A model generated the notes under the pieces. That model did no database searches. It saw only the letters and a program-made list of their open reading frames with translations, and was not told where the DNA came from. 64,000 nt of DNA, taken from assembly GCA_000349905.1 (NCBI GenBank), contig KB722737.1, forward strand, positions 1,249,474 to 1,313,473. The letters are read 5' to 3'. Shown one piece after another: positions 1-25,644 of this stretch; the stretch's first letter is position 1; every line of letters starts with the position of its first letter. The stretch comes from Volvariella volvacea V23. Its lineage: Eukaryota > Basidiomycota > Agaricomycetes > Agaricales > Pluteaceae. The position numbers and the translations under genes were made by a program.

Positions 1-282
1 CGAGTTCCCCAAGTTCGCAGAGGGCTCCAAGGCACTATTGGATGCCACAATCGAGGCTGCACAGAGCGGCGCTACTGTCATCGTCGGTGGTGGTGATACT
101 GCAACTGTCGTCGCCCAATATGGTGCAGAGGACAAGCTGAGCCATGTGAGTACTGGTGGAGGTGCAAGTCTCGAACTCTTGGAAGGAAAGGTACGGCCTC
201 TTGTTCACGTTGGTATGCCACATTCATTTAATTCGCGATATTCAAGGTCCTTCCTGGTGTTGCTGCTTTGAGCGAGAAATAG
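1..282 (+). CDS. PGK1: phosphoglycerate kinase, C-terminal part (cut by window edge)
   Basis: This is the 3' end of 3-phosphoglycerate kinase, the glycolytic enzyme that makes ATP and 3-phosphoglycerate from 1,3-bisphosphoglycerate in the cytosol. The reading frame contains the family's nucleotide-binding signatures GGGDTA and [14 protein letters not shown]. The last intron (191-246, GTACGG...CAAG) follows the LEGK codons in phase 0. After splicing the protein ends with [11 protein letters not shown] and a TAG at 280-282, the usual end of fungal PGK. The N-terminal domain and the start codon lie left of the window. Family assignment is secure; the partial status is only due to the window edge. 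Confidence 0.95.
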
Positions 283-739: not shown

Positions 740-3700
740 ATGGAAGGCGAAAGCACCGGAAGAACATTGGATATCGAACTCGGAGGTCAAGAAGTGATCA
801 CGATCGACCTCGAACAGCTAGATCCAAACCCACAGGATGTTATTGACGTCTTGAAGGACGGGAGGTGCAGTTCTTGGATATGGACGAAACTCGGTGGGGA
901 GTACTGGCGTAGAGGGAATTTGGACGCTGCGGAAAAGATTGGACTTGCGGCTGTTGATAGTATGTTTGTTTTTACTGCCTTCGTTTCATTTCGTTTCATC
1001 TCGTTGGCTTTGTTTGTTGTGTGGAACGTCGTTGGCGTTGTTGGTCTCGTTGTCGTGGGGGAGGTGTGATTGACTGATCATGTCTTTTTGTTTTCTTTTT
1101 GTAGCGTTGAGTGCGAATGGAATGCATAGCTCGATTGCGTCCATATATTTGTTCCTGGCGAACATTCAGCAAGCGTATTCGCGGCAGGCACCAAAGATGG
1201 TGCTGAAGGAAGCACGTGTGTATTAATTCCTTGTTGCTCTTCCCGGTTTCTTGGGAATTGATCTTATGGTTTCTTTGGACTGCAGGCCGGGATGTGTTGG
1301 TGGGGGAGAAGTTGAAGGAGGTGTATTATAGAGAAGCGGCGCAGTATTTGAACACAAGTCAACGCGCTAGTGCAGAAGCTGGGGAAGGTGCGGGTGGGAC
1401 ATTGGCTTTCCTGACTCGTGGTAAGTCCTTATATCGTTAACACGTCTAGAAAGTGGGTATATGCGTGACTATTTGTTGTAGGAATCCAACAGCTAGAAAC
1501 GCGGGCTATGGACGATGCAATACGGTCTTTCGATGCCGTCTTGGCGGAGAAGCCGACAAACCTAGTGGCACTACTGGGTAAAGTATGGGCATATACTGAG
1601 GGATGTTGTGTTACTTTGTGCTGAACGAGGATCCATCAGGCTCGAGTCCTTTACGCGCGCAAGAATTACCGGGAAGCGCTGAGACTCTTCCAGGAGGTGC
1701 TCAAGTACAATCCTAATTGTCAGCCCGACCCGCGGATAGGAATCGGTTTGTGTTTCTGGGCGTTGGACAACAAAGTGAAGGCTAAGGCTGCGTGGCAGAG
1801 GAGTCTGGAGCTGGTAAGGATGCCACTACGGTGTGACTATACCCTCAGCTGAAGCGTCGAACAGAATCCCAGGGAATGGTCGGCCCAATTACTGCTAGGT
1901 CTTGAAGCCATCAACGCCAGCAAGAACGAAGCCTGGTCAGAAAAAGAACGAGCTAGTTCTTACCTCACGGGGACGAAACTTGTCGAGAAGGCATTCAAAA
2001 CAAATCACAAGAGTGCGGCAGCAGCGAATGCGCTATGTGAACTATTCTTGAGGAAGGGCAAGTACGAGCAAGTGTGTGTCTATGCTTCCTAGTAGAAATC
2101 TGCGTTCTCATTGTTCTTTAGGCGCTTAAATTGGCGGAACGCACTGTACAATTCGCAGATACCTTGACAATTTTGACGGAAGGATATATCCGGGCGGGAC
2201 GCGTTTTACATGCAGAAGGCTCAACATTACAAGCGTCAAAGTTCTTCACTGCTGCTCTAGAGGGTCAACCTAAGAATACACTGGCTGCTATTGGTCTATC
2301 TCAAATACACCTCCGAAATGGTACGTGTACCCAATTGGTATCACTAGCGTACAAAATTCCAACTCGTTTACTTCGCAGAGGAGATGGCTGCCGCTATACA
2401 CACTCTGGATAGTCTTCTACAAGCCCCGAATCCAGTCAAATCATTGGACGCAACTGTTATGTTGGCATCACTACGGGCTTACCCCCGACCAGGCGTGTCC
2501 AGTAGTGACATCGCCCAAGACAAAACACGCGCGAGGGAATTGTACGATCGAGCACTAAAGATGATGGAAATCGACGAGCTGCGCCCTCAAAACCAGGGAC
2601 ACTCCAGAATTTCTCGGAATATCTTGGACGACCTCGAGATGCACGCTGAGATATCAAAGTTGTGGCATGGAGAGAGTCTGGATAGGGTTGCAAAGGCATT
2701 GCGGGAGGCGCTGAGGATAAGCCAGGCGAGTGGGAACGCGGACCCTCGGTTACTCAATAACTTGGGAGCGCTGCAACAGTTAGATGGGCATTTCAAGGAA
2801 GCACAAGCCCTGTATGAGGACGCGTTGACAACGGCGTCTGCGCAAGGTGCACAGATTGGGGAGGGAATGTCAACGTCGATTCTTTACAACCTTTCTCGAG
2901 TATACGAAGAACAGGGACAGGAGGCATTGGCGAAAGATGCGTACGAGAAACTCGTGTCGAAACACCCTGAATATGTTGACGGTGCGTTGTCTCGAGCTGT
3001 CCAACTTTCTGCGAGCTTAGGCCTCCCTCGAATATATAGCGAAGATACGCCAGGCCCATATGTTGTCCAGTGCTGGCAAGCACAACGAAGCTCACGATCT
3101 ACTGAAGCAATGTCTATCTTCACAACCCAGCAATCTCAATCTTCGCGCATATTATATCTACTTCCTTATCCAGAACAACCTATCAAAGCCCGCCAAAGAC
3201 TTTGTATTCGCCACTCTCAAGGAGTACGAGAAGTACGACGTTTATTCGTTGTGCGCAGCTGGGTGGATAATGTACTACCAATCCCGAGAAAGCCGGGATT
3301 CATCACCCAAGGCTATCGAGGAACGGAAACGTGGATTCCAACGCGCTGCAGAGTTCTACGAGAGGGCACTGCAGTTTGACCCACAATGCGCGTTTGCAGC
3401 CCAGGGCTTGGCTATTGTGACGGCGGAGGATGCACTAGGAACGCTTGGAGGTGCTTTGGGCCCACCGGCGCCAGATGAGATGTTGAAGAGGCTGAAGGGT
3501 GCAAGAGAAGCGCTGGACGTGTTCTCGAAAGTGAGAGAGTCGCTGAACGACGGGAGCGTGTACGTGAATATGGGGCACTGCTACTATTTCTGCGATGAGT
3601 ATGACCGAGCCATTGAGAGCGTGAGTGGTTGTCTTGTTGTGCGTTGTGGTGACTTTTGATTGACTGGAGACTGTTGCTCAGTATGAAACGGCTTCGACGC

Positions 3701-9968: not shown

Positions 9969-11398
9969 TCACCGTCGTCGTTGCCAAAACTCGGTATCAA
10001 ATCTCGAGTTTGCATAATAATACCTCTTTTTCTTCTCGTAATCACCTCTTATTTGCATATACACACCCTCAATCGACGTATCATTCGCCACAGCATCCCC
10101 AAGGAGCCGCTTTCCCAAAATTGTTCCAACAGAACAACCACATTCTAGGGCGGTGATCATCCCTTGGGAGGATAGCGGATCAAATGCCATTGCGGCATCA
10201 CCAATAGCGTACCATCCACCTCGACGGCCAGAACCCTCCAAAGTGTGCTCTTCTCCCAAGGGCTGTAGAATAGAACTACAAGCCGAAGTGACTTTTGGGT
10301 ACGAACCCGTTTTGCTCGCCAGAAGGGGGCGGTAGTCCATATTCTCGATAATATCTTTGATGTAATGCGTTTCATCTGCTAGGAGATCGGCGAACCCATC
10401 TCGTTTACGGGCCACTTTGGACGTTGGCTCTGTATCGTCTGTATGGTAGACGACTACGCGCAAGTTGGATGTCAACTGGGAGGTGTACCACCAGCCTGTG
10501 GGAGATGCTTCTAACAAGGTGCGTCTATCGCGATCGGAGTCGGGTAGAGGGGAGGTGAATAAGGTGTAGAATGCCAAGAGTGAATCTTGCTTCTGGGTTT
10601 TGGCACCGAGCTACTCCGAGGACGAGGTGACTGGTTGTATCCGTGAAAGATGCATTAAGACGTACCTTGTGCGCCACGCTAGCTTTTCTTCCTGTACAAT
10701 CCAATAGCCAGCTAGACGTGCAATAGATCGAGTTCCCAAGGCTCCCATCCGCCTCAAGCCGTTGCAATTCTACCCTCCAAATCCCATTTTTATCCTTCTC
10801 AACCCCAACAAACCTCGCCTTCACAAATCCATGTTTCCCACTAACACCTTGTGCGCCACCCCCGGGCCCAACGGCAGAATCACTGGCTTGAGGCCGTTGA
10901 GATAACTTTGCCACTGCATCTCTTAGCGTGTCTTCGAATCGGACACGATCCAAGTGCCATCCCGCTCCAAAAGGATTCATGATGGAAAACGTCTCTTCCA
11001 ACTTCTCTGTTCCCCATGCCGATGCGTTCCCTGTACAGCTTATGTGCCTCCCATCGGATGTATCTCGGGCTAGTTGTGCGGATACTTCGGGCGAGAGGTA
11101 TCGTAGAATCTGTGATGCTTCGGGCGGTAGAGATTCCCCGATCTACACATTACAGATATTGTCGTGGTGAGCTTTTAGTGGTAATGGTATTGAGCTTGGT
11201 ATAACCCACTTTGAACTGGGAAGAGTCTGAATCGTCTACAAGCAAAAACTTTGCGCCTGGATTCGCGCGGAATAGTCCAAGCGCTGCTGAACATCCGGCA
11301 GGTCCACCGCCAATGATGATCACTTCGAACCTGGGTGTTGAGAGATCTGCTCATCCTCATACCCCGCTCGACATACCATCATAAACTGAACTTTCCAT
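9969..11398 (-). CDS. LodB-like FAD-dependent oxidoreductase (CTQ maturation factor)
   Basis: Flavoprotein of the LodB/tryptophan-halogenase-like group. In bacteria LodB and GoxB are required to build the cysteine tryptophylquinone (CTQ) cofactor of their partner oxidases; here the substrate would be the LodA-like proteins encoded upstream on the same strand. Exons 10666-11142 and 9969-10610 are clear; the second exon ends at 11210. Motifs are the FAD-binding GGGPAG near residue 20, GESLPP at about 51-56, NASAWG, GRKASVAHKLGAK, and the GD motif AIGDAAMAFDPLSSQGM at about 343. The C-terminus ends in an aromatic/Arg-rich FWQRRR, as LodB proteins do. Total about 421-425 residues. The first intron is uncertain: the frame needs either a 42-base intron with a poor donor (11331-11372) or a 30-base intron with a good donor (11347-11376). 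Confidence 0.82.
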
Positions 11399-11836
11399 TG
11401 TAGCTGGCTCGATGAAAATGAACTTGAAGAGAAGAGGGAGAGGGAGAGGGAAACCAAATTGTGGGGTTCGGTGAGTCTGAATTTTATAGCATTCTAGTTA
11501 TGCCAGATCTAGATGACGTGCTGAATGGAGTTCTGCCTGCTCAATACATTTCGTGATGACTTCCCAAGATGGTCAGTATCCGTATCAGGTGGGAGGATGC
11601 AAGAGGTAATATCCAAGCGGAGAAGATTTGCTTCCATTCATAATGTCAAACAGATTTATGTGATACGGTAGCGACAAATATCGCAATAATAGTACATCGA
11701 ATTTAGCTGTCTCTGCCCTACCACTTTTCAGTACGAAGTAATAGCTCACATGCAGTCACTATACATTAAACACTGTCGGAAAAGGCTTAAACCTCGAGAG
11801 CTTGGTCAACTTTAATGCAGGCATGTCGACATTCCT
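11399..11836. other. promoter of the LodB-like gene and 3' flank of the LodA pseudogene
   Basis: No gene seen. A purine-rich tract (11425-11452, pyrimidine-rich on the coding strand) lies 30-55 bases upstream of the LodB-like ATG, as expected near a fungal transcription start. Confidence 0.45.
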
Positions 11837-14507
11837 CTAGGGTTCCAGACTACTGAGCAAAGGAATCTCAGGAATCTCAGCTAAGTTCTCAATAGCAGTT
11901 TGGATAGGGAGGAGGCCAAACCGAGGAGTAGCATCTCCTCTGCCACGACGCCTTATCATAAAGGAGTGAGCTACAGGCCGATGTAGTAAGGTAAGGGTCA
12001 CACCTCGTATTGCAGCTACTAACGGGTCGTGATACCTCGGATCGCTAGTGAACTTTGCAGGGGTTTTGACACTACACATGACGTATGAGTATATTGGGAT
12101 TGTGGATAGTTCTACTAGCACCGCTGTTTCCAGATGCTTGTGCAATTCCTCGATGGTAGTTGAGTGGAACGTGTAGAAGTTCCTGCGGCAGATCTGGCCT
12201 CTCCGAGTCAGGAGCGATGTTAATTAGTGGGCTGTGCTTCGTCTCAATGAAAATGGGCTGCTCCGTTTCTGTGACGTAGCTCTTTCCATCCCGCTGGGTT
12301 ATTATGCCAAGCAGATGCCAGTTCTTGTCCATATCAGTATTTGCGAAGAATGGTTGGTTGGGGAAGTCATCTATTATGCCTTTCAATACAGAGACAATAC
12401 AAGGGAATAGATCAACTCTACCTGTATAGTTCGGGCGTAACCCTCTCTCCTATGGTCGGCGGGTATTCTTGACGAAGAACTTAGCGAGTTTGTCTGCGCT
12501 TAAATTCGGGTGTTCGCAGTGAACTTTCTGGTATTCCTCTTCAGGAAGAACTGAATCTGGTCGGACTGCAGGCCACCTAACGTATATTATATCAACTGTG
12601 AGAGCGTGGTTACAGAAGCTTTTCGTACCAGTAGTTTCTGCACCTATAGAAGTCACCTAACCTGGGTTCAGATCGTATGAAGAAGTGACATAAAGAAGCA
12701 TATACTCTGCCACGGAAGTGAAAGATATCTTGTTAGGTCACCCGGGTTTATTTTCTCGTTGATTGAAAATGGCCTTTGATGGTCGTATGTGTCCTTCTGC
12801 TCCATATTCCATGACGCCTCCAGACCTGGGTAAAGTGGTGCTCCTATCGTTGGCTCTAAAGCTGCTCTCGTAAGCGCTGCTGGTCGGTCCTCAAGTTCAA
12901 TTTCGTCGACGTCTTGAGGAGGTGGAGGTGGCGATTCGCCAACCGTAAAGTCTCCCTCCGTCCATTTCACTAAGCGGTCATATTGCAACTCAGTGATCGA
13001 TGCAAATGTGGTGGGATCGCCGGCGACGGTACGGCCTAACAGCGAATAAGTACTAATGGTTTCTCTCGAGTTCTCTCATCTCACCTCCATCACCGGATAA
13101 CCATGGCATGAAGTAGGGATACACCTGGCCAAATCGGGCGTTGTCATATTTAGGGTTGGTCCACGGCAGTCGCATCCTTTCAAGAACTTCTTTTCTAGTA
13201 TGGGCATGCTCAGGATCCTTCGGGTTGTTCTTCAACGCTTTGAGCCAGTATTCATCAAAGAAGTTTCCTGGGCCGCTGGGTCCTATAGGAAAGATATCAA
13301 TCACAGCAACTATCCTTATTGTGTTTAAATAACCTTACCATGACCACCCGTGGCCTGAATATTGACCCAACTTAACAGCGCAGGCCGTTGGAGAATTGGC
13401 CATATGTGTTTGTACCATTCAACATCGCCGACGTCGTATTTTTTCCCTTCTTTCTTAGTCTGGGCGCGCTTCTCCTGTGTAAACCTCTTCAATTAGATCG
13501 TACAATGTTGTAGGTTGATAAATGCCCCGAGCAAAATCGGGCGGACCGACAAGGACTCGTGCTTCGGTGGCTTCCTTTCCTCTAGAAACGAAATTCAGCT
13601 TCGAATCATTTAGACCAGATGAAAACACTCACGAGTCGGTCGCGTCTCCACGGACGCGAACTCGCGCCGTGATACGACCATCAGAAGTGTCGTCAATCCA
13701 TCCCGGCGTATTGAAATCGTCAGCGATCAAAGGTTTCACTGGGTCCAGAATATTGCACAAATCTCCACGACCACCAAGAATGATAAGGTGACCTTTCTTG
13801 TCCGTTCTGGCCTCTCCGGGATACACAGTCTCAGCTTTGTAGGTCTTAGGTGGTTTGAGTATCAAGCTAGCTGTGCCCTTAAATGCGCCTTTTAACTCAA
13901 CAGGACCTTGATCGGGTCCCCCGATAGGAGCAACGTTTGTCCTGATGACGAGGCGGTCACGGTTGTCCGGTAGATTCTGGGTAGTGTTGTTAGCATGTTG
14001 GCTTGCGGGGATGGAGGAACTCACTTCTGCTTGTACATCGGAATTCCTGAGAGTTGTATAACCGGGCTTGAATTGGCCCTCATAGCGACCTAATGGAGAT
14101 TAGTTAATGGGAATTCAAGGTTCTTAGACACCTACCTAAGAAGTTGTACCAAGACGGCTTCTTATTTGCAAGCTGAACACTCCATTCTATGTCATACTCA
14201 CCCGCGGTAACTTCTTTTATCGGAACACCATTTTCGAGGGCATAGATTCTAAACCTGGCAGCCTATTGGATAGCGTAAATATCCAACTACACAATATACA
14301 CTACTCATTTACCTGGCGTTTGATTCTTCCGTGCTGATCTTTATACCCTCCCAGCGGCTCGTCGAAGCGTCCAGGAACTTCTGGAGCATAGAACCAGCCA
14401 TCATTGAGGCTAGGCTCTCGAGAGTTTTCAACTCTAGCAAGGCCAATGGGAGGGTAGATTGCGTAGGTTATAGCTTGAGGGATGGGAGGGGGAGGGAGAG
14501 AAGTCAT
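11837..14507 (-). pseudogene. pseudogene of LodA / ferritin-like fusion oxidase (copy 1)
   Basis: Clearly homologous, exon by exon, to the two intact fusion genes upstream (starts AIYPPIGLARVENS, later PEVPGRF, GWIDDTSDGR, RCRNYW, WPAVRPDSVLP). It carries several independent lesions. (1) Near 13478 a two-base loss after LIEEVY shifts the frame. (2) At 12450-12452 the TGG of the conserved RRPWERG motif is TAG. (3) Near 12160-12168 about 35 bases are missing between the LodA part and the ferritin-like part, changing frame. (4) Near 11925-11931 roughly 1 kb of the ferritin-like region is deleted, joining VAEEML directly to the last ~25 codons. Some exons are still well conserved, so the decay looks fairly recent. 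Sequencing error could explain one lesion but not all four. Confidence 0.85.
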
Positions 14508-15879
14508 TGCTCCTTGAGCTCCTGGTTACCCTTTCTTTGTGCAGTTTATATGTTCTCAAGGGATTCTTCTGCTCCACGAAATGGCTGTGGTGACCCAGCA
14601 CATGACACGATAGTTTGCATAAATAGATGTCTGCGTTCTATATTGAAACTAACGCCGACTTAATTTAAGGCTTGACCAAAACCTGTGTTCTGGAATCGAA
14701 TAAAAATCGCAAAACGGTGTGATCTAGGGCGATTTATTTGGAACCTTTCGCTGAGAAGATTGGAGGATAACTGGGACCAATCACATCACCTCTTGGAAGC
14801 AAAATGAGATCGTGTCTTGTCACAGTCATTGGCACAAAAGATTAGAACTCGCAGCTGAACAAAGATGTGGTGGTTCGGCTGTCAATTCTCATTCTTCGGG
14901 CTGAAGAGCTCGATCATTGTCGGTCAGTTGGTGAGTCTTAGTCTATCATTACGGTTCTCCTTTTGTAGGGTTTACATTTTGGAGTTTAGCACTTATGTAT
15001 GTGCACGAGAATTACGACTTGCCGTGATTGCACGATCAGGGAGATACATAACATGATCACAAGTAGAAGCACAGTGGAGTATCAACACTTTGAGCATACG
15101 AAATCGAAGTCTCGGGAAAGCCGTCATCGTTGAGCATACCCTTTGTGTCTTGGATTGTTCTCAGGCAGGGAATCGAATTGCAAATGGGTATTGGTGTTCT
15201 ACACAGAAGATTGTTCTATGTTGGTAACCGTACATTAGGTTCATCTGCAGGTGAGGTGTCGCCTTATGAAATACAACGTGAGTAATTATCATGGCTTGGG
15301 CTCTCAACTCGCCTACGATTAGTGCCTATTGCCGATTCTGGTCTTCAAGAGAAGCGCGAGCCGATAACTCAAGAGAACAATCACAACCCCCTGTCCCTCT
15401 ACAGATCATAGATTCCTAACTGTTGTTGTCCATGCTGCCGTCTTCTCCATGCCATAGAGTCCTCTTCTGTTCAGTGCTTGGGATAACTCACCTACCTCGG
15501 TGGCGATTGTAATCAAACCAACAGACGGCATTCACCATAGTGTATGCGGACGTGGATAACGTTCTATGTCACGCTGCAAGGTACCCACGAGGTTGACCGG
15601 ACAGTCCAATTCAGGGAGTGATGGTCAAGTTCAACATCGTACATTCTGAGCTAAGGCAGCAGCCCGGGCCGGGCGACATCTAAGTTTTGAGTTGCCGGAG
15701 GTGCGATTGTGTATTTGTGTTGGTCTTGAGTTGATGACACTCACCTGAATGTCGCGTTTTCCTTTCATATTGTCAAGCAAATTCATATCACATCACACCG
15801 CAAGGACGAATATCGTAGTAATAGTACAACGGATTTAGCAGTCAAATAGCCAATTCAAAGCCACAAGCATCTCAGGTAC
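14508..15879. other. 1.4-kb spacer between LodA-type copies 1 and 2
   Basis: Contains the former promoter of copy 1 and the 3' flank of copy 2. Small open frames (for example 14865-15056) show no motif, splice structure or homology to the neighbours that I can see. Confidence 0.45.
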
Positions 15880-18800
15880 CTAGATTAGCTCGGCCAAATT
15901 TTGGATAGCAGTTTGAATAGGAATAAGCTCGTTGACCTTTTCCCCAAACTTGTGCCTAGACACCTGATCGGGTGTCTCGTCGCGGTCATCGTCGAGATAG
16001 ATATTAATCGACCTCTCCATTTCTGCCTGGAGTTGTTTGAGAGGGGATGGCGCGTTAGGGCCATCGTCGAAGGGATAATACTCGAATGTCGGGCCAGCAT
16101 GTCGACCACCGCCAACTTCCTGCTGAACCATATATCTTGCCAAAGGCGCCAATACACCCATCATCAAACCGTAAAGGTTTTGGAGGATGAATTTGTGGCG
16201 ATCATCAGAGGTGGGAACTCTCCACAGCGTCTGAATGGTAAGCAGCAAGAACGAGTATGCAGCGTTGAAGGTGGTGGCAACCTGATTTAATGCAAGTTAG
16301 GAAATAGTCTCATTAAAAATGCTAACAAGGTGCCGCACCTGCTTGAGCTTAGGGTCGCGATAGCTGCCTTTGCGTGGGTTGTCGAGGACATTCCAGAGAT
16401 TATCCGGATTGAGCAGGTCATTATCTTCGCTCCAGTAAATCTCGCTGAAGATCTCGTAGTGCGACTTCTCAAGCCGGTCTTTGTCATCATAAGGATCTTT
16501 ATATTCGAATCCTTCTCCTTGTTCCACAATAATCTTGATCGCCTTTTCGGCGTCGCCGAGGTTCCTGATTACAACGGAGCCACCAGCATCAAGCCAATGT
16601 GGTTGGTATCCTCGTCCAGGGTGGAATTGGTATTCGTCCTTGCCCTGAGGGAACAAATTTTGTTCGCCTATCGTGTCGTTCAATAACACCAAACCTGTGA
16701 TAGCGAAGTTAGCATTTTGGTAGCGTCAGAGGTTTGTGGATGCATTACCATCCTGTATGGCTTTATAGAATTGCGCAAGCGTGTGGTATTTGTCTGGTTC
16801 TGCCTGTGCATTAGGCTGTGCTGGCTTTTCAATCTATAAAAAAGTTAGTATGCACTCAATCAACGAGACAATAATATACCTGTAGGAAACTCTTGAGATT
16901 CTCTTTATCGAGCTTTCTGAGGTTGAGAGATACTGGAGGATCGGCGTGCCCGAGCATGTCAGATGGATAGGTAGGGATCCTGTAAGGATCATATAGAATT
17001 GGATTTCCTCCCGTAGCAACTAAAATGTTCCCAGCTAAACTGAGGTGCAACATTTCCTCCGCCACGACACCTTTGGGTGGGTAAAGTAAATCACAGGCTT
17101 GCATGGTTGGTGAGAGGCTTACCTCGCACTGCAGCTGTTAACGGATTATAGTACCTCGGATCGCTGGTGAACCTTGCAGGGGTTTTGACACTGTACATGG
17201 CATATAAGTAGATGGGAATTGTGGATAGTTCCACTTGGATCGCAGTCTGCAAATGCTCGTGTAATTCCTCGAGGGTACGTATCTCTCCGTTCTCTGGGAA
17301 TTCAGGGAATCTAAGAGGAACGTGTAGTCGCCGCTGTGGAGGGTCCGGCAGAGATAGAACAGGAGCAGGATTGATTGACGCGCTACGTGCGGTCTCAATG
17401 AAGATGGGCTGCTCCGTTTCAGTGACGTAGTTTTTTCCATCCCGCTGGGCGATTATGCCAAGCAGATGCCACTTCTTGACCATATCTGAGTTCGCATAGT
17501 ATGGCTGGACCGGGAATTCATCTAATATGGACATTCAAGACGAGTAGGATACGAGGGGAGTATCTACTGTACCTGTATAGTTCGGGCGTATACCTCGTTC
17601 CCATGGTCGTCGGGTTTCCTTGACAAACAACTTGGCAAGATTGGCGGGGCTTAAACGCAAGTTTTGGTTTTGGAAAAGAATTTGCTTATAGGTATCTTCG
17701 GGAAGAACTGCATCTGGTCGCACTGCAGGCCACCTAAAACATATCATCTTAGAATGGGAGTGCGTTTCGTTACCATTCCTCGTACCAATAGTTTCTGCAC
17801 AAGTAGAAGTCACCTAACCTAAATTCAGCACGCCGAGGAAAGCAGAACCAAGGTGCTACGCACTTTGCCATGGAAGCGACAGGAACCTCGTTAGATCCCC
17901 CGCCTCAATGTACGGATCAATGGCGAATGGGGTCTCAAAGTTGTATGTAGTCTTTTCTTCCATATTCCACGACGCCTCCAGGCCTGGGTAGAGCGGTGCT
18001 CCTATTGTCGGGTCTAAAGCCGCCTTCGTCAGTGCTGCAGGTTGGTCCTTCTTAGGAATATCATCAAAGTTCAATATCGGTGGAGTATCAATAGTGAAAT
18101 CGCGTTTAGCCCATTTCACCAGACGATCGTATTGCAGTTCGGTGATCGATGCAAACGAGGTTGGATCGCCGGAGGTTGTACGGCCTGGTCGTCTATCAGT
18201 AATAATTCCTCCCTAGCTCTTCCATCTTACCTCCATCACCGGACAGCCAAGGCATGAAGTAGGGGTACGCCTGGCCAAATCGTGCGCCATCGTATTCGGG
18301 ATTTGTCCACGGAAGCCGCATCCTCCCCAGAACTCCTTGCTTGATAGCGTCGTCATTAGGATCCTTGCTTTTCAGTGCTTTAAGCCAATTCTCGTCAAAG
18401 AAATTTCCTGGTCCTCCAGGGCCTATCAGAAACAAGAAAAGGGAGATGAGTCGCAAAAACTGAAACCAAATCGTACTAATCTTACCGTGTCCGCCGGTGG
18501 CTTGAATATTAACCCAACTCAATAGTGGAGGTCGTTGAAGAAGTGGCCATATATGCTCATACCATTTAACCTCACCAACATCGTATTCTGTGCCTTGATC
18601 CTTAGCCTCAGCGCGTTTCTTTTGCTCATATACTTCCTCGATCAAGTCGTATAGGGTCGTAGGCTGATAGACTCCTCTTGCATAATCGGGCGGACCAACA
18701 AGAACGCGGGCTTTGGTAGGAACATCCTCCCAGCTATGAAACAAGCTCAGGGATGCATACAGTCACATCGAGCAGGGAAGAGCGCTCACTTTCCACCATC

Positions 18801-19648
18801 ATAACGAACTTGCGCGGTGATCCATCCATCGGAAGTGTCGTCAATCCACCCAGGTGTATTAAAGTCATCACTGATCAGAGGATTCTCTGGGTCTAGGATA
18901 TTGCGTGACAATCCACGACCCCCAAGAATGACAAGGCGGCCCTGATCGTCTGACCGGGCTTCCCCGAGGTAGACCTTGGTTTTCTTGTAGACCGTAGGTG
19001 GATTAATTAACCCATCTGTCCCCTCGAACGTTCCTTCGAGCACCTTGTGTTCGTTATCGGGATCAATTTGCACCACGTCTGTCCTGATGATTAGACGGTT
19101 ACGCTCATTTGGATCGTTCTAGAGAACATCATTTGTATACCACCTTCCTGAGATGCTCCAACTCACCTCGGCTTGTACGTCGGGATTCCTCAAACTCCTG
19201 TAACCTGGCTTGAATTGTCCCTCATAGCGACCTGATGTATGTTAGTAGATGTACCTAGATCCATAAATTACATACCCAAGAACTTGTACCAGGATGCTTT
19301 CTTGTTAGCGAGTTGAACGGTCCACCTGATATCGAAGCCATTTTTGTTTGTGACCTCATGTTTAGCAACACCGTTGCTGAGGGCATAGACTCTGAATCTA
19401 GCAGCCTGGAGGGGGGGTATCAATAGCGGAGTATTTGGCACAAAGAGGACATTTACCTGGCGCTTGACTTTTCCGTATTGGTCTTTGTACCCTCCAGGCG
19501 GTTCGTCGAAGCGTCCTGGAACCTCAGGGGCGTAAAACCATCCATCGTTGATGTTAGGCTCCTCGGAGTTTCCAACTCTGGCTAGGCCAATGGGAGGGTA
19601 AATCGCATAGCCGTCAATGCACTCAAAGTCGATGGTTTCGTCAGGCAT
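15880..19648 (-). CDS. LodA-like CTQ oxidase fused to VioB/RebD-type ferritin-like domain (copy 2)
   Basis: Fourteen exons join in phase (19457-19648, 19276-19405, 19167-19231, 18790-19118, 18486-18733, 18231-18422, 17864-18184, 17786-17813, 17573-17733, 17123-17521, 16880-17070, 16749-16833, 16339-16694, 15880-16281), giving about 1032 residues. Residues 1-610 match LodA/GoxA quinoprotein oxidases: AIYPPIGLARVGNS at the N-terminus, FYAPEVPGRF, GWIDDTSDGW, ATGGHG, PWQSDFYLC, WWPAVRPD, and the KKWHLLG...FIET end. Cys498 (DFYLC) is the likely CTQ cysteine; Trp546 (RRPWERG) or Trp573 could be its partner. Residues 640-1030 match the C-terminal region of VioB/RebD: VELSTIPIYLYAMYS, then AEEMLHLSLAGN with the E-x-x-H metal ligands (Glu653, Glu693/694, His697), then VEQGEG and EKSHYEIF. 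No signal peptide is evident. CTQ oxidases oxidise primary amines or amino acids and release H2O2; the second domain may use or protect that product (inference). Confidence 0.85.
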
Positions 19649-21880
19649 TGGTACTGATGAACAGTCTCCGTATCGATGAGATATAGTCTGTCAAATAAGG
19701 TGTCGAAGAGGACGGAGGGTTGAGTAGAAGCTCAATGCTTTTGGGACATACAGCCACTTCTTTTATTCAACGTATGAGTCCAAATGAAGATATGGTCTTA
19801 TGAGATTGTCTGGTGACCTAGGCAGATGACCCAATCCATAAAGATAGTGGAAAGAAAAGGGCATCTTGACACAATGGCAGGGCTGCTCCAAGTTGACCAA
19901 GAACTTGCTTTCTTGCGGTGGAGTGTAGTTATCTATTGCTCAGTGGGTAATATTAAGCATTTGTGCCACTAACCTGGGGAACCAACCAATGAGAGATGTA
20001 AGATTATCACTGACATCGGGAGCCAGGAATAAGGTTTAGGTAGTTGACATCCGAATTTGCTAAGCTAGGGAGTGATCGCTAACATAGTTGCAGGTTTCAG
20101 GCAATTCTTGTCGCAAAGTTGTGAATGGAAGCGCGGCGAGGTGTCTGTCTGAGCACGTTTTTATGCCCAGATTATGTCACCGATCCAATTGGCCAAGTTC
20201 TACATGGAATGCTCGTTCGTTATGGCCTTATGCAGGTTATGTACCGTGCGGTGCGATAAGCCCTGAGGATTTTGACATCACTATGGTCAACACTTTAGTA
20301 AACCATGTTCAATGCTATACTAACCTCCCTTCAAATTTTCCGATACAGAAGTTCGTGAAGGTAAAGAAAAATATTATTTTGTACATAGTCGCACAGTAAT
20401 CTATGGGGTTGACTTCGGTTTTTGTATTCGAACCACCATACGTGTTACCTACTGTAGACTACTTTCTAGTGCTGTGGCACACGCTGGGCTCCTCAAGCTC
20501 TGAGTCAAGCGCATAGTAAGACTCGGAGGAATTAGAATGGACCTGTCGAATTCGCAGTCCGCACCATTCACAAGATAACGATAACGAGCACGACTGTTGC
20601 ATACTGCCAGTACTTGAAAGGATTTATGTCTTTAGAGATCGCCTAGAACAAGTTGATAGCGGACGGAGGGGCTCTGGATCAACCGTCTCATTACGATAAG
20701 CAGCCAAGTATGTTCCAATCAACTTCAAGTTCTCGATTTTGTGCTGGATGTGTGTCCGAGATTGAGTCCAATTGCTCACATATAAGCTCTGAGAGAAGTG
20801 GAATCGGGCACCGTTCAAGCTACTCATTCAAACGCACCGCCGGCAGTGTATGAGAGTGGAACTTGCTAATCTCGAAGACCAACGGAGTAATTGTGGTGGT
20901 GGTTATTGGATCAAACAGAGACAACCAATCAGAGGCAGTTGATTACAGGTACTGATTGATGGCCAAGCATTGGCCCTGTCAATCGCGATAACTCGACTAG
21001 AAATCAGCTGAATTCTATTGGCCATACATAGAATACCACTCCGGTGAATCTAGAGCCCCGAGTCGATAAATGCGCATAACTTGGATCAATCAAGGACTAA
21101 ACTATTTTGACAGTGCTGCTAAAATAGGCACAAACCATACACGGCCTCGCTGAGATGGCCTCATGATCTGATCAGATAGAAGCTGTATGGCGAATGCCAT
21201 GAAATAAAATGACAAAAGGGCTGGGAGCCAGTGGTACGTGCGGTGGGTGGAACTTTCCATGAACGTGAAATTTGGAATCAAGAAATTCCTTCTGGACTTC
21301 GCAAGCGTTGTCATTCATGATCAGACGCATTGCTCCACAGGAACTAACTGGGTTAATGGGCCCAATTGACCTGAAAAAATGGTACTCTATTCTTGCTGTT
21401 CGGCACCGATGCAAGACCTTTGTCTAGAAGCACCTCTTTACCATGTCTGCTGCAGAAGAGAGTCCCGTTTTCCAAAGAACTTCGAGTCTTAAAATGTACA
21501 GCACCTAGCACCTCTATTGTATCAATCTGGTCAATTCCCTTAAGAATTCTGATCATTGTATTGTACATCGTGACCTTCTGGTATTAGTTCACGACCTTAT
21601 GGGTGTGGTAATGAGAGGTGGTGTGCAAAGGGTGGCTTAGGTGTTGCTAGTATCCCGGAAAATATTCCCTTCAATCAGCCACATGTGTATTCATCTTCTG
21701 TATTGGAGGCTCCTTACCTCTGGCCGTGATATGGGGGCCTACGAAGTACATATACGGAGTACAACATATAAAGCTCGGCTCAGTTGAGACACGCCTAAGC
21801 AACTCGGCACCGGTGTCACAAAGGTCGTTATTGGTACATTTTGGTAGCTCTTGATGGAACCGTACACAATACAAGATAAA
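19649..21880. other. 2.2-kb spacer between LodA-type copies 2 and 3
   Basis: Holds the promoter of copy 2 (with an AATAAAAG on the minus strand near 19763) and the 3' flank of copy 3. I found no motif-bearing frame, repeat or tRNA in between. Its length is unusual next to the tight spacing elsewhere, so a lost gene or degraded element is possible but not visible by eye. Confidence 0.4.
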
Positions 21881-24800
21881 CTACTCCGGCACAGGGAGCT
21901 CAACCAACTTATTGATTGAATCTTGAATGGGAAGGAGCAAGTTGATCTGCTCGCCGTAGTTGTATATAGGCACCTGGTCAGGCGTTTCATCGCGATCGGC
22001 ATCCAAATATTCAGCAATGGATCTCTTCATCTCCGCCTTGAGTTGTTGGAGGAACGTCTGCTGGCCCACCTTGAACTCGTAATACTGGAAGGTTGGGCCT
22101 GCAACCCGGCCATTGCCCACGTCCTGCTTAACCATGAATTTTGCCAACGGCGCAAGAACTCCCATCATAACCCCGTAGAGGTTTCCGAGCACAAGCTGGT
22201 GGCGCTCGTCGCGCTTGGGTATTTTCCAGAGTGTTTCGATCGTTATGAGTAGGAAGCAATAAGCTGCGTTGAAGGTGATGGCAACCTGAAGTAATGATCA
22301 GCAACAACTCAGGTACGCAGTAAGTAATGGATATATACCTGACGAATCTTGCTATCTCTGTAGTCTTCTGCCCTCGGGTTATCCAGGACGTTATAGACCC
22401 TATCAAGGCCGATTATTCCGTTGTCCTCGTCCCTCGAAATCTTCGAAAACAATGCGTAGTGCGACTTCTCCAGTTGGTCTGGGTCATCAAAGTCGTCATT
22501 CTCCGAGTGTCCTTCTCCTTGTTCCACGATAATATCAATGGCTTTCTTTGCGTCGTCCAAGTTCTTCACGACAACTGAGCCACCAGCGTCGCGCCAACGA
22601 GCCTGGTATCCGACTCCCGGTGCGAATTGGTAGTCTTCTGTTCCAGGAGGGAATAGCGGGGGATCTGTATCCCTCCTATGCGTCTCGTAGTATTCCATAC
22701 CTGACGTGGAGCTGGTCACTAAGACTGATACTGAGGCAGGGATTGAATGTATACTCGCCTTGCTTTATCGCGTCATAGAACTGAGCGAGTGTACGGTATT
22801 TATCCGGCTGTGCCGGTGCATCTGGCTGAGCCGGGAACTCGATCTTTAAAATATGAAGCCTTTAGCAGGACAGAACCAGAGGTTGGTGATGGCATACCTG
22901 CAAGAAGGTGTTCAAGTTTTGTTTGTCAAGTTTTCTCAAATTAAGAACAAGTTTCGGGACGTGGCCGAGCATATTTGACGGGTAAGTGGGAATCTTCTTA
23001 GCACTGTAGAGTACTGGATTTCCTCCAGTAGCTCTGAGCATGTTACCAGCCAAACTAAGATGCAACATCTCCTCCGCCACGATACCTTAACACATATTAG
23101 CGAATCGTTATGAAATCCACCGAGGAGTATATTATCAACTTACCTCGAATTGCGCCAACGAGCGGATCATAATACCTAGGGTCGCTCTTAAACTGAGCTG
23201 GAGTTTTGACGCTATACATCGCATAGAGATAAATCGGGATGGTTGAAAGTTCCACAAGCATCGCGGTTTGCAAGTGTTCTTGGATTTGTTCGAGGGTCAT
23301 CACGATAATATCATTTATTCCATGGAGGTCGGGCTTCGCAGGGAATTTGAGTTGGACATGCAAGCGTGGACGACTTGGTTCGTCCTGACGAGGACGAGGT
23401 GATATAACGGGGCTGCGCTGCGTCTCGACAAAGATGGGTTGTTCAGTGTCCGTGACATAACCCTTCGGCGGTCGCTGCGTGACCACACCTAGCAAGTGCC
23501 AGTGCTGGGCCATATCGGTATTGGCAAAGTATGGTTGGCCATCGTACACATCTACAAGTCATTTGAGCCATGCGTTCGAGACTGTTTGGAGGAGAAAACA
23601 TAGTACCCGTATAATTCTGGCGTAAGCCTCGCTCCCACGGTCTGCGAGTGTCGGGACCAAACTGTCTTGCCAGCTCAGCGGGATCTATATCGACATTAGG
23701 GTTGTTACGCTGTAGGTCATAAAGAATGCGGAGATATGCATCCTCTGGTAGTACAGCATCAGGTCTGACGGATGGCCACCTAGTGTGTACTTGTCAATAC
23801 ATGAATCTCGTTCCCGCAGGGGTTCTCTGCTTACCAGTAGTTTCTGCACATGTAAAAATCACCTGCAGATAATAAGATATTCTGATAGATAAGAGCTTGC
23901 GAGACACGTACTTTGCCATGGATTAGAGAGGTATCTCGTCAAATCACCCGCATCCAGACTGTCGGCAATGGTGAATGGCAGGTCAAGGTTGTACGTCGTC
24001 GGCAACTCCATGTTCCAGGATGACTCAATGCCTGGGTAAAGCGGCGATCCTATCGTGGCCTCTAGGGCTGCTTTAGTGAGTGCTGCTGGCTGGTCTTTTA
24101 TGTCAAGCCTTTCAATGGTTTCTGGGGGTGCATCGGGTGTGGGCCCAACGGTAAAATTACCCTGAGCCCATTTTGTAAGGCGGTCATACTGTAATTGAGT
24201 GATTGACGAGAATGTTGTCTCATCACCAGCAGTAGTTCGACCTGAAGGCGCATGAGTAACTGACTACTTATGAACCGATGCACTCACCATTGTCACCTGA
24301 CAACCACGGCATGAAGTATGGGTAGGCTTGACCAGACCGGGCCTTATCATATTTCGGATTTGTAAATGGGAGTCGCATCCTCCCAAGGACTCCTTGCCTG
24401 ATATCTGCTACATCGTCCGAGGTTTTCTTCAACACTTCAACCCATTTGGCGTCGAAGAAATTTCCTGGGCCACCAGGACCTGGACGAATGTTAGTTGATT
24501 GTGTACACATGGAGGGGCTCCTTACCGTGACCGCCAGTGGCTTGGATGTTTACCCAACTCAAGAGTGCAGGCCGTTGAAGAAGTGGCCAGATATGCGCAT
24601 ACCATTCTACATCGCCAACATCATAATTTTCTCCTTCTGCATTGCGCTTCCTTTGTTCGTATACGTCCTCAACCACGTCGTAAAGACTTGTGGGTGCATA
24701 AACTCCAGGAGCGAAATCTGGAGGGGCGACCATAACGCGCGCCTTACTCGCTCCATCAACCCAGCTATGAAATTAGCAAAATTAGTGTGGCCCTGGAGAA

Positions 24801-25644
24801 TGATGAGAATCGGGCGTGTCCTTACTCGCTGCCGTCATTGAGTTTAACGCGCACAGAAACCCAACCATCAGAGGTATCGTCAATCCAATCTGGAGAATCG
24901 AAATCGTCTGTGATGAAGGGATATTCCTCGTTGGGATCGGCAACGCTTCGAGATCTGCCATGACCACCAACGATTACGAGGCGACCCTTTTCGTCCGTCC
25001 AAGCATCTCCAAGATACACATCTACTGGCTCGTTGGTCGATCCCGTGAAGGTGCCGTGTAGTGGTTCATCGAGCTTTGCATCGCATCCTTCGAGAACCCC
25101 CGTACTGGACCGAATGATGAGGCGATCACGGGAATCTGGGGGTAACTATGGGTGGTATGAGCATACGGGTCTGTGGTAATACGTGGCCCTTACATCAGGT
25201 TGTACAGCAGGATTTCTCAACCTAGTGTAACCTGGTTGAAAGGGTCCCTCCTCCATCCGGCCTGAAGGATGTAAGAAACTGTAGGTCTTAATATTTTTAG
25301 CGCCTACCCATGAATCTGTAGTATGATGGCTTCTTATTAGCGAGTTGGAACGTCCATTCAACAGTATAGTCCCTATTGGAAGTAACTTCTTCGAATGGAA
25401 CCCGGTCGCGCAGCGCATAGACTCTGAACCTGGCAGCCTAAACATTGTGGTCAGCACTTTACCGTAGAATGGAGGGGCGTGCAATCCTGACCTGGCGTTT
25501 TATGGCTCCATTTGCGTCCTTGTATCCACCCTCTGGTTCAGTGAACCGTCCGGGGACCTCTGGACCAATAAAAGATTCGGTTTCGGAGTTTCCAACCCTG
25601 GCTACGCCGACAGGTGGATAGATTGCGTAGGATACGTGAGACAT
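21881..25644 (-). CDS. LodA-like CTQ oxidase fused to VioB/RebD-type ferritin-like domain (copy 3)
   Basis: Paralogue of copy 2 with the same 14-exon plan and the same intron phases (25492-25644, 25308-25437, 25194-25261, 24826-25145, 24526-24764, 24288-24479, 23912-24241, 23835-23862, 23607-23779, 23144-23551, 22898-23085, 22759-22843, 22339-22700, 21881-22285), giving about 1026 residues. LodA part: AIYPPVGVARVGNS, FIGPEVPGRF, GWIDDTSDGW... core, DFYMC with Cys483, WWPSVRPD, RRPWERG with Trp535, QHWHLLG and FVET. Ferritin-like part: VELSTIPIYLYAMYS, AEEMLHLSLAGN, VEQGEG, EKSHYALF. Intron 12 (22701-22758) begins GC rather than GT, fixed by reading frame. The N-terminus is shorter than in copy 2, so the first conserved strand starts almost at the initiator. 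Together with copy 2 and the LodB-like gene it probably forms a CTQ-oxidase module; the substrate cannot be told from sequence. Confidence 0.86.

Follow-up and report, generated by a model that had tools for sequence, protein, structure and literature searches.

The window analysed here is a stretch of 64,000 nucleotides from Volvariella volvacea V23 (contig KB722737.1, positions 1,249,474 to 1,313,473 of the forward strand), and the genes of concern lie on its minus strand between positions 9,969 and 25,644. Two intact genes (genes 2 and 3) each encode a single chain in which a LodA-type quinoprotein, with the residues expected for a cysteine tryptophylquinone (CTQ) cofactor, is followed by a ferritin-like domain of family PF12902 with the residues of a candidate diiron site. 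A third copy (gene 1) is broken, and a gene for a LodB/GoxB-like flavoprotein adjoins them. The features are as follows, in window positions:

25644-21881, minus strand: gene 3, intact LodA-ferritin-like fusion, 14 exons, 1026 amino acids
Gene 3 exons 1-5, minus strand: 25644-25492, 25437-25308, 25261-25194, 25145-24826, 24764-24526
Gene 3 exons 6-10, minus strand: 24479-24288, 24241-23912, 23862-23835, 23779-23607, 23551-23144
Gene 3 exons 11-14, minus strand: 23085-22898, 22843-22759, 22700-22339, 22285-21881
23862-23835, minus strand: gene 3 mini-exon with Asp479 and the putative CTQ residue Cys483
23551-23144, minus strand: gene 3 exon 10, coding without interruption for the last part of the LodA fold, the linker and ferritin helix 1, including candidate ligand Glu645
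23252-22461, minus strand: gene 3 candidate diiron ligands Glu645, Glu686, His689, Glu834, Glu849 and His852
19648-15880, minus strand: gene 2, intact LodA-ferritin-like fusion, 14 exons, 1032 amino acids
17521-17123, minus strand: gene 2 exon 10, the equivalent LodA/ferritin junction exon
14507-11837, minus strand: gene 1, broken third copy with a frameshift, an in-frame stop and most of the ferritin-like part gone
11398-9969, minus strand: LodB/GoxB-like flavin adenine dinucleotide (FAD) maturase gene, 4 exons, 417 amino acids

Genes 2 and 3 share one plan of 14 exons, the introns being all GT-AG in gene 2 and 12 GT-AG plus one GC-AG in gene 3. Only two substitutions separate the gene 3 protein from AX16_010842 (P0001), deposited for V. 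volvacea WC 439, and the counterpart of gene 1 in that strain has been deposited as a 660-residue protein (P0010). The proteins of genes 2 and 3 are about 61% identical, and their LodA and ferritin halves are conserved to about the same degree (63.4% and 66.6%, with 41.2% in the linker). All eight LodA_N matches in the 35.4-Mb genome fall within this cluster, none being found elsewhere.

A Pfam scan of the spliced proteins of genes 2 and 3 detected LodA_N, LodA_C and PF12902 in one chain, with E-values in the two proteins of 2e-52 and 3.4e-52 for LodA_N, 8.3e-22 and 1.3e-22 for LodA_C and 3.5e-51 and 4.7e-46 for PF12902. All three domains score far beyond their gathering thresholds (178-179 and 78-81 bits for PF17990 and PF18417 against cut-offs of 26.3 and 25), and the E-values rule out a chance motif match. 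PF14518 had no match in either protein up to an E-value of 0.1. Both folds were recovered in the structure model, residues 4-592 matching GoxA/LodA (PDB 6byw, 3weu) and residues 625-959 matching the ferritin-like protein CC_0557 of Caulobacter (PDB 3hl1); such a search speaks to fold, not to function. A preliminary description of the locus, made from the sequence alone, had proposed a LodA-type quinoprotein (about residues 1-610) in two intact genes and one pseudogene, joined to a ferritin-like domain with EExxH, VEQGEG and SHY motifs. The domain and fold matches bear out both the quinoprotein and its fusion partner, residues 640-1030 do match the ferritin-like family that contains VioB and RebD (PF12902), and all three motifs are found in the predicted proteins.

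The fusion could be an artefact of gene modelling, with each half a gene of its own, the arrangement shown for Gymnopus luxurians in 2015. The fungal trio of LodA, LodB and PF12902 has been known since that year, and the relevant sections of that survey show PF12902 in separate genes beside fungal lodA, for instance in G. luxurians (PMC4417212); some deposited models are also split. Against this, exon 10 of both genes 2 and 3 codes, uninterrupted by any stop, for the last helix of the LodA fold, the linker and the start of ferritin helix 1, past the first ligand. Between residue 569, still within the LodA fold, and residue 664, which lies beyond the first ligand (Glu653), the gene 2 protein contains no Met. 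Both halves also stand on an assembled EukProt transcript of another eukaryote (P0013, 1027 amino acids, open reading frame type complete). Fused models have been deposited from Psilocybe, Sphaerobolus, Russula and Mycena (cut short), from Jimgerdemannia (Mucoromycota) and from Funneliformis (Glomeromycota), Entrophospora, Dentiscutata and Cetraspora, several of these sources being arbuscular mycorrhizal fungi; PF12902 is present in 17 of the 120 homologues listed, two of the 17 lacking LodA_N. In Cyathus, a LodA protein (P0009) and a ferritin-like protein (P0238) look as if one gene had been cut in two at an intron: P0009 ends at an intron position of the window genes, and P0238 begins at a Met inside the LodA fold. 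Because these halves look like one gene, the separate PF12902 genes of Gymnopus may be split models of the same kind. We therefore reject the split-gene reading, which the junction exon, the P0013 transcript and the deposited fused models make extremely unlikely; the two halves almost certainly belong to one chain and not to two transcripts. Another EukProt transcript (P0123) joins LodA_C to the ferritin-like domain, with a ubiquitin-like stretch inside the latter.

LodA forms its CTQ from C516 and W581, according to the part of the survey that deals with the cofactor (PMC4417212). Cys516 aligns with Cys483 in the PWQSDFYMC motif of the gene 3 protein, and the codon of the putative CTQ residue Trp488 starts at 23778, in the exon after the mini-exon. 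In a 17-sequence profile, the WWP that follows Cys483 aligns with a Trp pair of GoxA, in which we take Trp697 to be the CTQ tryptophan, and weakly matches the gamma subunit of quinohemoprotein amine dehydrogenase (QHNDH; E-value 0.012); the assignment of Trp488 comes through GoxA and this QHNDH match. As described in the sections concerned of PMC7876137, the QHNDH gamma subunit has its CTQ at Cys37-Trp43, beside Trp42, and an Asp is strictly conserved in tryptophylquinone enzymes; Asp479 corresponds to this residue. The Cys, both Trp and the Asp are invariant (17/17 and 20/20 aligned rows), and PWxxDxxxC...WW is found in 119 of the 120 homologues listed. At the position of GoxA His583, which is a Cys in LodA (presumably Cys448) and presumably influences substrate choice, all 16 rows inspected have Tyr or Phe, and for this reason the substrate of the oxidase is probably neither lysine nor glycine. 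The fusion also falls below the NCBIfam equivalog cut-offs for LodA and GoxA (124 and 269 bits against 600 and 750).

The LodB-like flavoprotein which the preliminary description had placed next to the fusions is indeed there, matching the GoxB, LodB and QhpG models with E-values of 1.8e-58, 5.2e-51 and 2.3e-24. These are family-level matches, the GoxB and LodB scores (198 and 174 bits) lying below the 400-bit equivalog cut-off and the QhpG score likewise under its strict cut-off. A search of the 35.4-Mb genome with the GoxB model gave two matches, both inside this gene, which is thus the only GoxB/LodB-type maturase gene found in the genome.

The ligands of carboxylate diiron proteins usually follow the order E, ExxH, E, ExxH. 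By sequence, PF12902 has this order, and the signature is complete in the fungal fusions, where these residues are candidate ligands. Across 67 aligned PF12902 domains drawn from several architectures, Glu645, Glu686, His689, Glu834 and His852 are identical in every one, while Glu849 is Glu in 60 of the 67 and in two of the five VioB-type rows. The fusions keep their metal ligands as well as the stand-alone proteins do.

The preliminary description had gone further and matched this domain to the C-terminal part of the imine dimer synthases VioB and RebD. Part of this stands, as distant kinship with VioB is real at the level of sequence: residues 675-958 align collinearly with VioB 666-938 (of 1003), and five metal ligands are common to the fungal domain and the VioB-type rows. 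Membership of the VioB/RebD family proper, and with it a specific coupling domain, we reject. On the VioB model TIGR04492 the fusion domain scores 25 bits against a cut-off of 1250 (a stand-alone ferritin-like protein, P0244, scores 28, and the real VioB, L100, found in one of 399 genomes searched, 1746.7). One VioB and four VioB-like proteins form a clade (support 100/100, branch length 2.41) that excludes the fungal domain. The N-terminal half that VioB shares with its relatives from the Streptomyces order (about 450 residues, 33-40% identity) is absent from the fungal fusion, residues 4-592 being LodA instead. VioB-like proteins of that order were matched in 26 of 391 genomes; among loci L101-L110, the open frames matching VioB (picked as the longest frame) of L101, L105, L108 and L110 entered the tree, and L102, L103, L104, L106, L107 and L109 were dropped before it. 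This set is RebD/StaD-type by inference, the comparison including no named RebD. After the fungal proteins, the best full-length relatives of the domain are stand-alone proteins of about 350-400 residues, 33-40% identical over nearly its whole length.

In the tree of the ferritin halves, the fungal fusions cluster with two further fusions (P0015 and P0167), the EukProt transcript P0013 and three fungal ferritin-only proteins (support 82/79; 98/93 for the inner fork without P0015 and P0167). Stand-alone, CDGSH-fused and VioB-type proteins fall outside this group; the domain envelope of P0005 was trimmed for this tree, and P0123 was left out. In the tree of the LodA halves, the fusions group with 13 fungal and two further LodA-only proteins (99/93), P0015, P0167 and the Glomeromycota falling on one side and the Mucoromycota, P0013 and the Agaricomycetes on the other. 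The ferritin tree instead joins the Glomeromycota to this second side, a fork apart from which the trees of the two halves mainly agree. Since they mostly agree, a single old fusion, later lost in some lineages, is suggested for the Agaricomycetes, Mucoromycota and Glomeromycota. The LodA-only proteins nest within the fused group (midpoint root), which for that reason reads as loss of the ferritin half, and ferritin-only proteins of Amanita and Leucocoprinus nest inside the ferritin tree. V. volvacea has a second PF12902 gene on another contig (L113:3507-4726, G000:C1), ferritin-only and with its ligand motifs kept. A protein of the myxobacterium Minicystis (P0168) has the reversed order, ferritin-LodA. 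Neither tree places it with the fungal fusions, which suggests that it arose by a fusion of its own; its branches are long, and the record, with only an N-terminal LodA part and a doubtful end, may be incomplete or damaged.

Turning to bacteria, we compared the 79 LodA loci nearest to the query (the best 79 of at least 556 confirmed), with flanks of up to 8 kb, some shortened by contig ends. A LodB-like frame accompanies LodA in 76 of the 79, and in 28 the LodA chain itself carries a PF14518-type part; PF12902 occurs somewhere in the genome in nine of the 25 LodA genomes searched. PF14518, annotated as an iron-containing redox enzyme and presumably of heme-oxygenase-like fold, stands after LodA in all five LodA-PF14518 proteins scanned, and the passage of the 2015 survey on such fusions lists further ones, to catalase-like and PF14518 domains placed N-terminally (PMC4417212). 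LodA is thus joined to several iron-type domains (PF12902, PF14518, catalase-like). PF12902 in turn is fused to a CDGSH iron-sulphur domain, and in part to PF06902, in 53 of the 120 proteins listed (P0126 and relatives; those named are actinobacterial), which suggests an electron supply to its diiron domain. Four long PF12902 proteins (P0185, P0186, P0196 and P0217, three of them from hemichordates) have a non-LodA N-terminal half and fall with the CDGSH-fused group in the PF12902 tree, not with VioB or the fungal fusions.

What sequence and structural model establish is the fold, the cofactor and metal-ligand residues, the fusion, the maturase gene and the largely shared descent of the halves. 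On this basis we favour, with about an even chance of its being right, a bifunctional oxidase in which a LodA/GoxA-type CTQ half is joined to a diiron ferritin-like half that consumes or uses its hydrogen peroxide (H2O2). The protein would probably be intracellular, as no signal-peptide-like start is seen by eye. Within residues 4-592, Cys483 and Trp488 would be converted to CTQ, assisted by the LodB/GoxB-like flavoprotein encoded next to it, and this half would oxidise a primary amine or amino acid to an aldehyde or keto product, releasing ammonia and H2O2. Residues 625-959 would hold a carboxylate-bridged diiron site in the ferritin-like helical domain, and this site would take up the H2O2, either as a peroxidase-type sink or as oxidant for a second oxidation. 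That LodA is joined to several iron-type domains is what chiefly leads us to assign peroxide or O2 chemistry to the ferritin domain; most likely it would be a diiron partner that uses peroxide or oxygen. A narrower version, in which CTQ-derived H2O2 is handed within the chain to the diiron site and there serves as oxidant on the oxidase's own product, seems rather unlikely. Several observations weigh against a bifunctional oxidase of this kind. The 29-residue linker (597-625) is modelled poorly, and the searches turned up no assay, no metal analysis and no mass spectrum of the CTQ. Each half can also work without the other: the tree contains 13 fungal LodA-only proteins, and Amanita, Leucocoprinus and V. 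volvacea itself have relatives that consist of the ferritin half alone. PF12902 neighbours LodA in one of the best 79 bacterial loci and is fused to it in none, which rules out a common bacterial LodA-PF12902 operon, and its rarity beside LodA in these loci speaks against a general functional tie. The CDGSH fusions, finally, point equally to O2 chemistry driven by electrons and to the use of peroxide.

It could instead be the product and not the peroxide on which the diiron domain acts, oxidising or oxygenating the CTQ-made aldehyde or imine with O2 and a reductant, as a two-step pathway in one chain. The complete diiron signature, the likely electron carriers (CDGSH, in part PF06902) fused to PF12902 elsewhere and the iron-type PF14518 of bacterial LodA relatives all suit this, but the fungal chain has no electron-transfer domain, nor was one seen in a coarse scan of 10 neighbouring frames (of the 126 frames of at least 100 amino acids listed), and we consider it rather unlikely. 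That the domain handles iron or copper, supplies metal or oxidant for CTQ making, or only stabilises the protein is unlikely: the biogenesis of LodA CTQ is said to have a copper-dependent step, in the part of PMC7876137 that treats it, yet neither the 13 fungal LodA-only proteins nor any of the best 79 bacterial loci has PF12902 fused to LodA, a LodB-like gene accompanies the fusion all the same, and ligand conservation matches that of the stand-alone proteins. For a VioB/RebD-like reaction, in which the domain would join two CTQ-made imines into a dimer, there are the common Pfam family, the collinear match, the five shared ligands and the pairing of a RebD-type synthase with a tryptophan oxidase in indolocarbazole pathways (in the section of PMC10851217 on these). 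Set against the TIGR04492 score, the separate VioB-type clade, the missing N-terminal half, the description in the same source of RebD, StaD and RedD as heme-containing and the failure to recognise any other pathway gene in the 10 neighbouring frames scanned, coupling becomes a weak option and very unlikely. Of the two roles that the preliminary description had offered, local handling of H2O2 fits better than imine coupling.

Elsewhere in the window, the 1385-codon open frame adjoining gene 3 (30564-26410, minus strand) has over most of its length the domains of a formylglycinamide ribonucleotide (FGAR) amidotransferase (PurL-type, purine synthesis), and an open frame at 2348-3376 (plus strand) has tetratricopeptide (TPR) repeats.

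The fusion, with the gene for its maturase adjoining, is a definite candidate that could be expressed to prove a CTQ enzyme, with its protein-derived quinone, in a eukaryote. Were the peroxide indeed handed on within the chain, this would be the first demonstrated eukaryotic CTQ enzyme, as far as searches of the open literature show, and iron redox partners would have been added to LodA several times separately: behind it PF12902 in fungi and PF14518 in bacteria, and ahead of it PF12902 in the myxobacterial record and a catalase-like domain. Paralleled as it is by other iron-type domains on bacterial LodAs, the fusion makes it testable whether CTQ oxidases often pair with an iron site that uses or removes H2O2. 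PF12902, whose named function in the libraries searched is VioB, gains a second setting beside an amino-acid oxidase, and in some fungal database entries what looks like a LodA gene beside a separate ferritin-like gene may in truth be a single gene. In the open-access literature searched (subscription papers being outside its scope) we recognised no paper on a LodA-ferritin fusion and no characterised enzyme of this layout, in agreement with the preliminary description.

Among known systems, stand-alone PF12902 proteins such as Caulobacter CC_0557 (PDB 3hl1) resemble the ferritin half in whole-domain sequence, fold and, in the aligned rows, ligands, but are not joined to an oxidase, and a described function was not found for them. 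VioB, RebD and StaD are distant PF12902 relatives with five ligand positions shared in the VioB-type rows; they differ in their N-terminal half, in forming a deep clade of their own, in the replacement of Glu849 in three of five rows and, for the RebD type, in being described as heme proteins. In bacterial LodA-PF14518 proteins, LodA is likewise followed, in the equivalent C-terminal position, by a redox domain of iron type, which belongs to another Pfam family. GoxA and LodA (PDB 6byw, 3weu) share with the fungal fusion the fold of residues 4-592, the CTQ Cys and Trp, the conserved Asp and a LodB/GoxB-type partner gene, whereas the fusion has in addition the C-terminal ferritin-like domain, has Tyr or Phe at the position of GoxA His583 and the LodA Cys, and scores below both equivalog cut-offs. 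The fungal LodA-like proteins of group V, which have lodB and PF12902 genes close by, bring together the same three components in Agaricomycetes. In the account of this group in PMC4417212 PF12902 is separate and lodB lies in the opposite orientation, whereas in Volvariella LodA and PF12902 form one chain and lodB shares their strand; the fusion has also been deposited from Mucoromycota and Glomeromycota.
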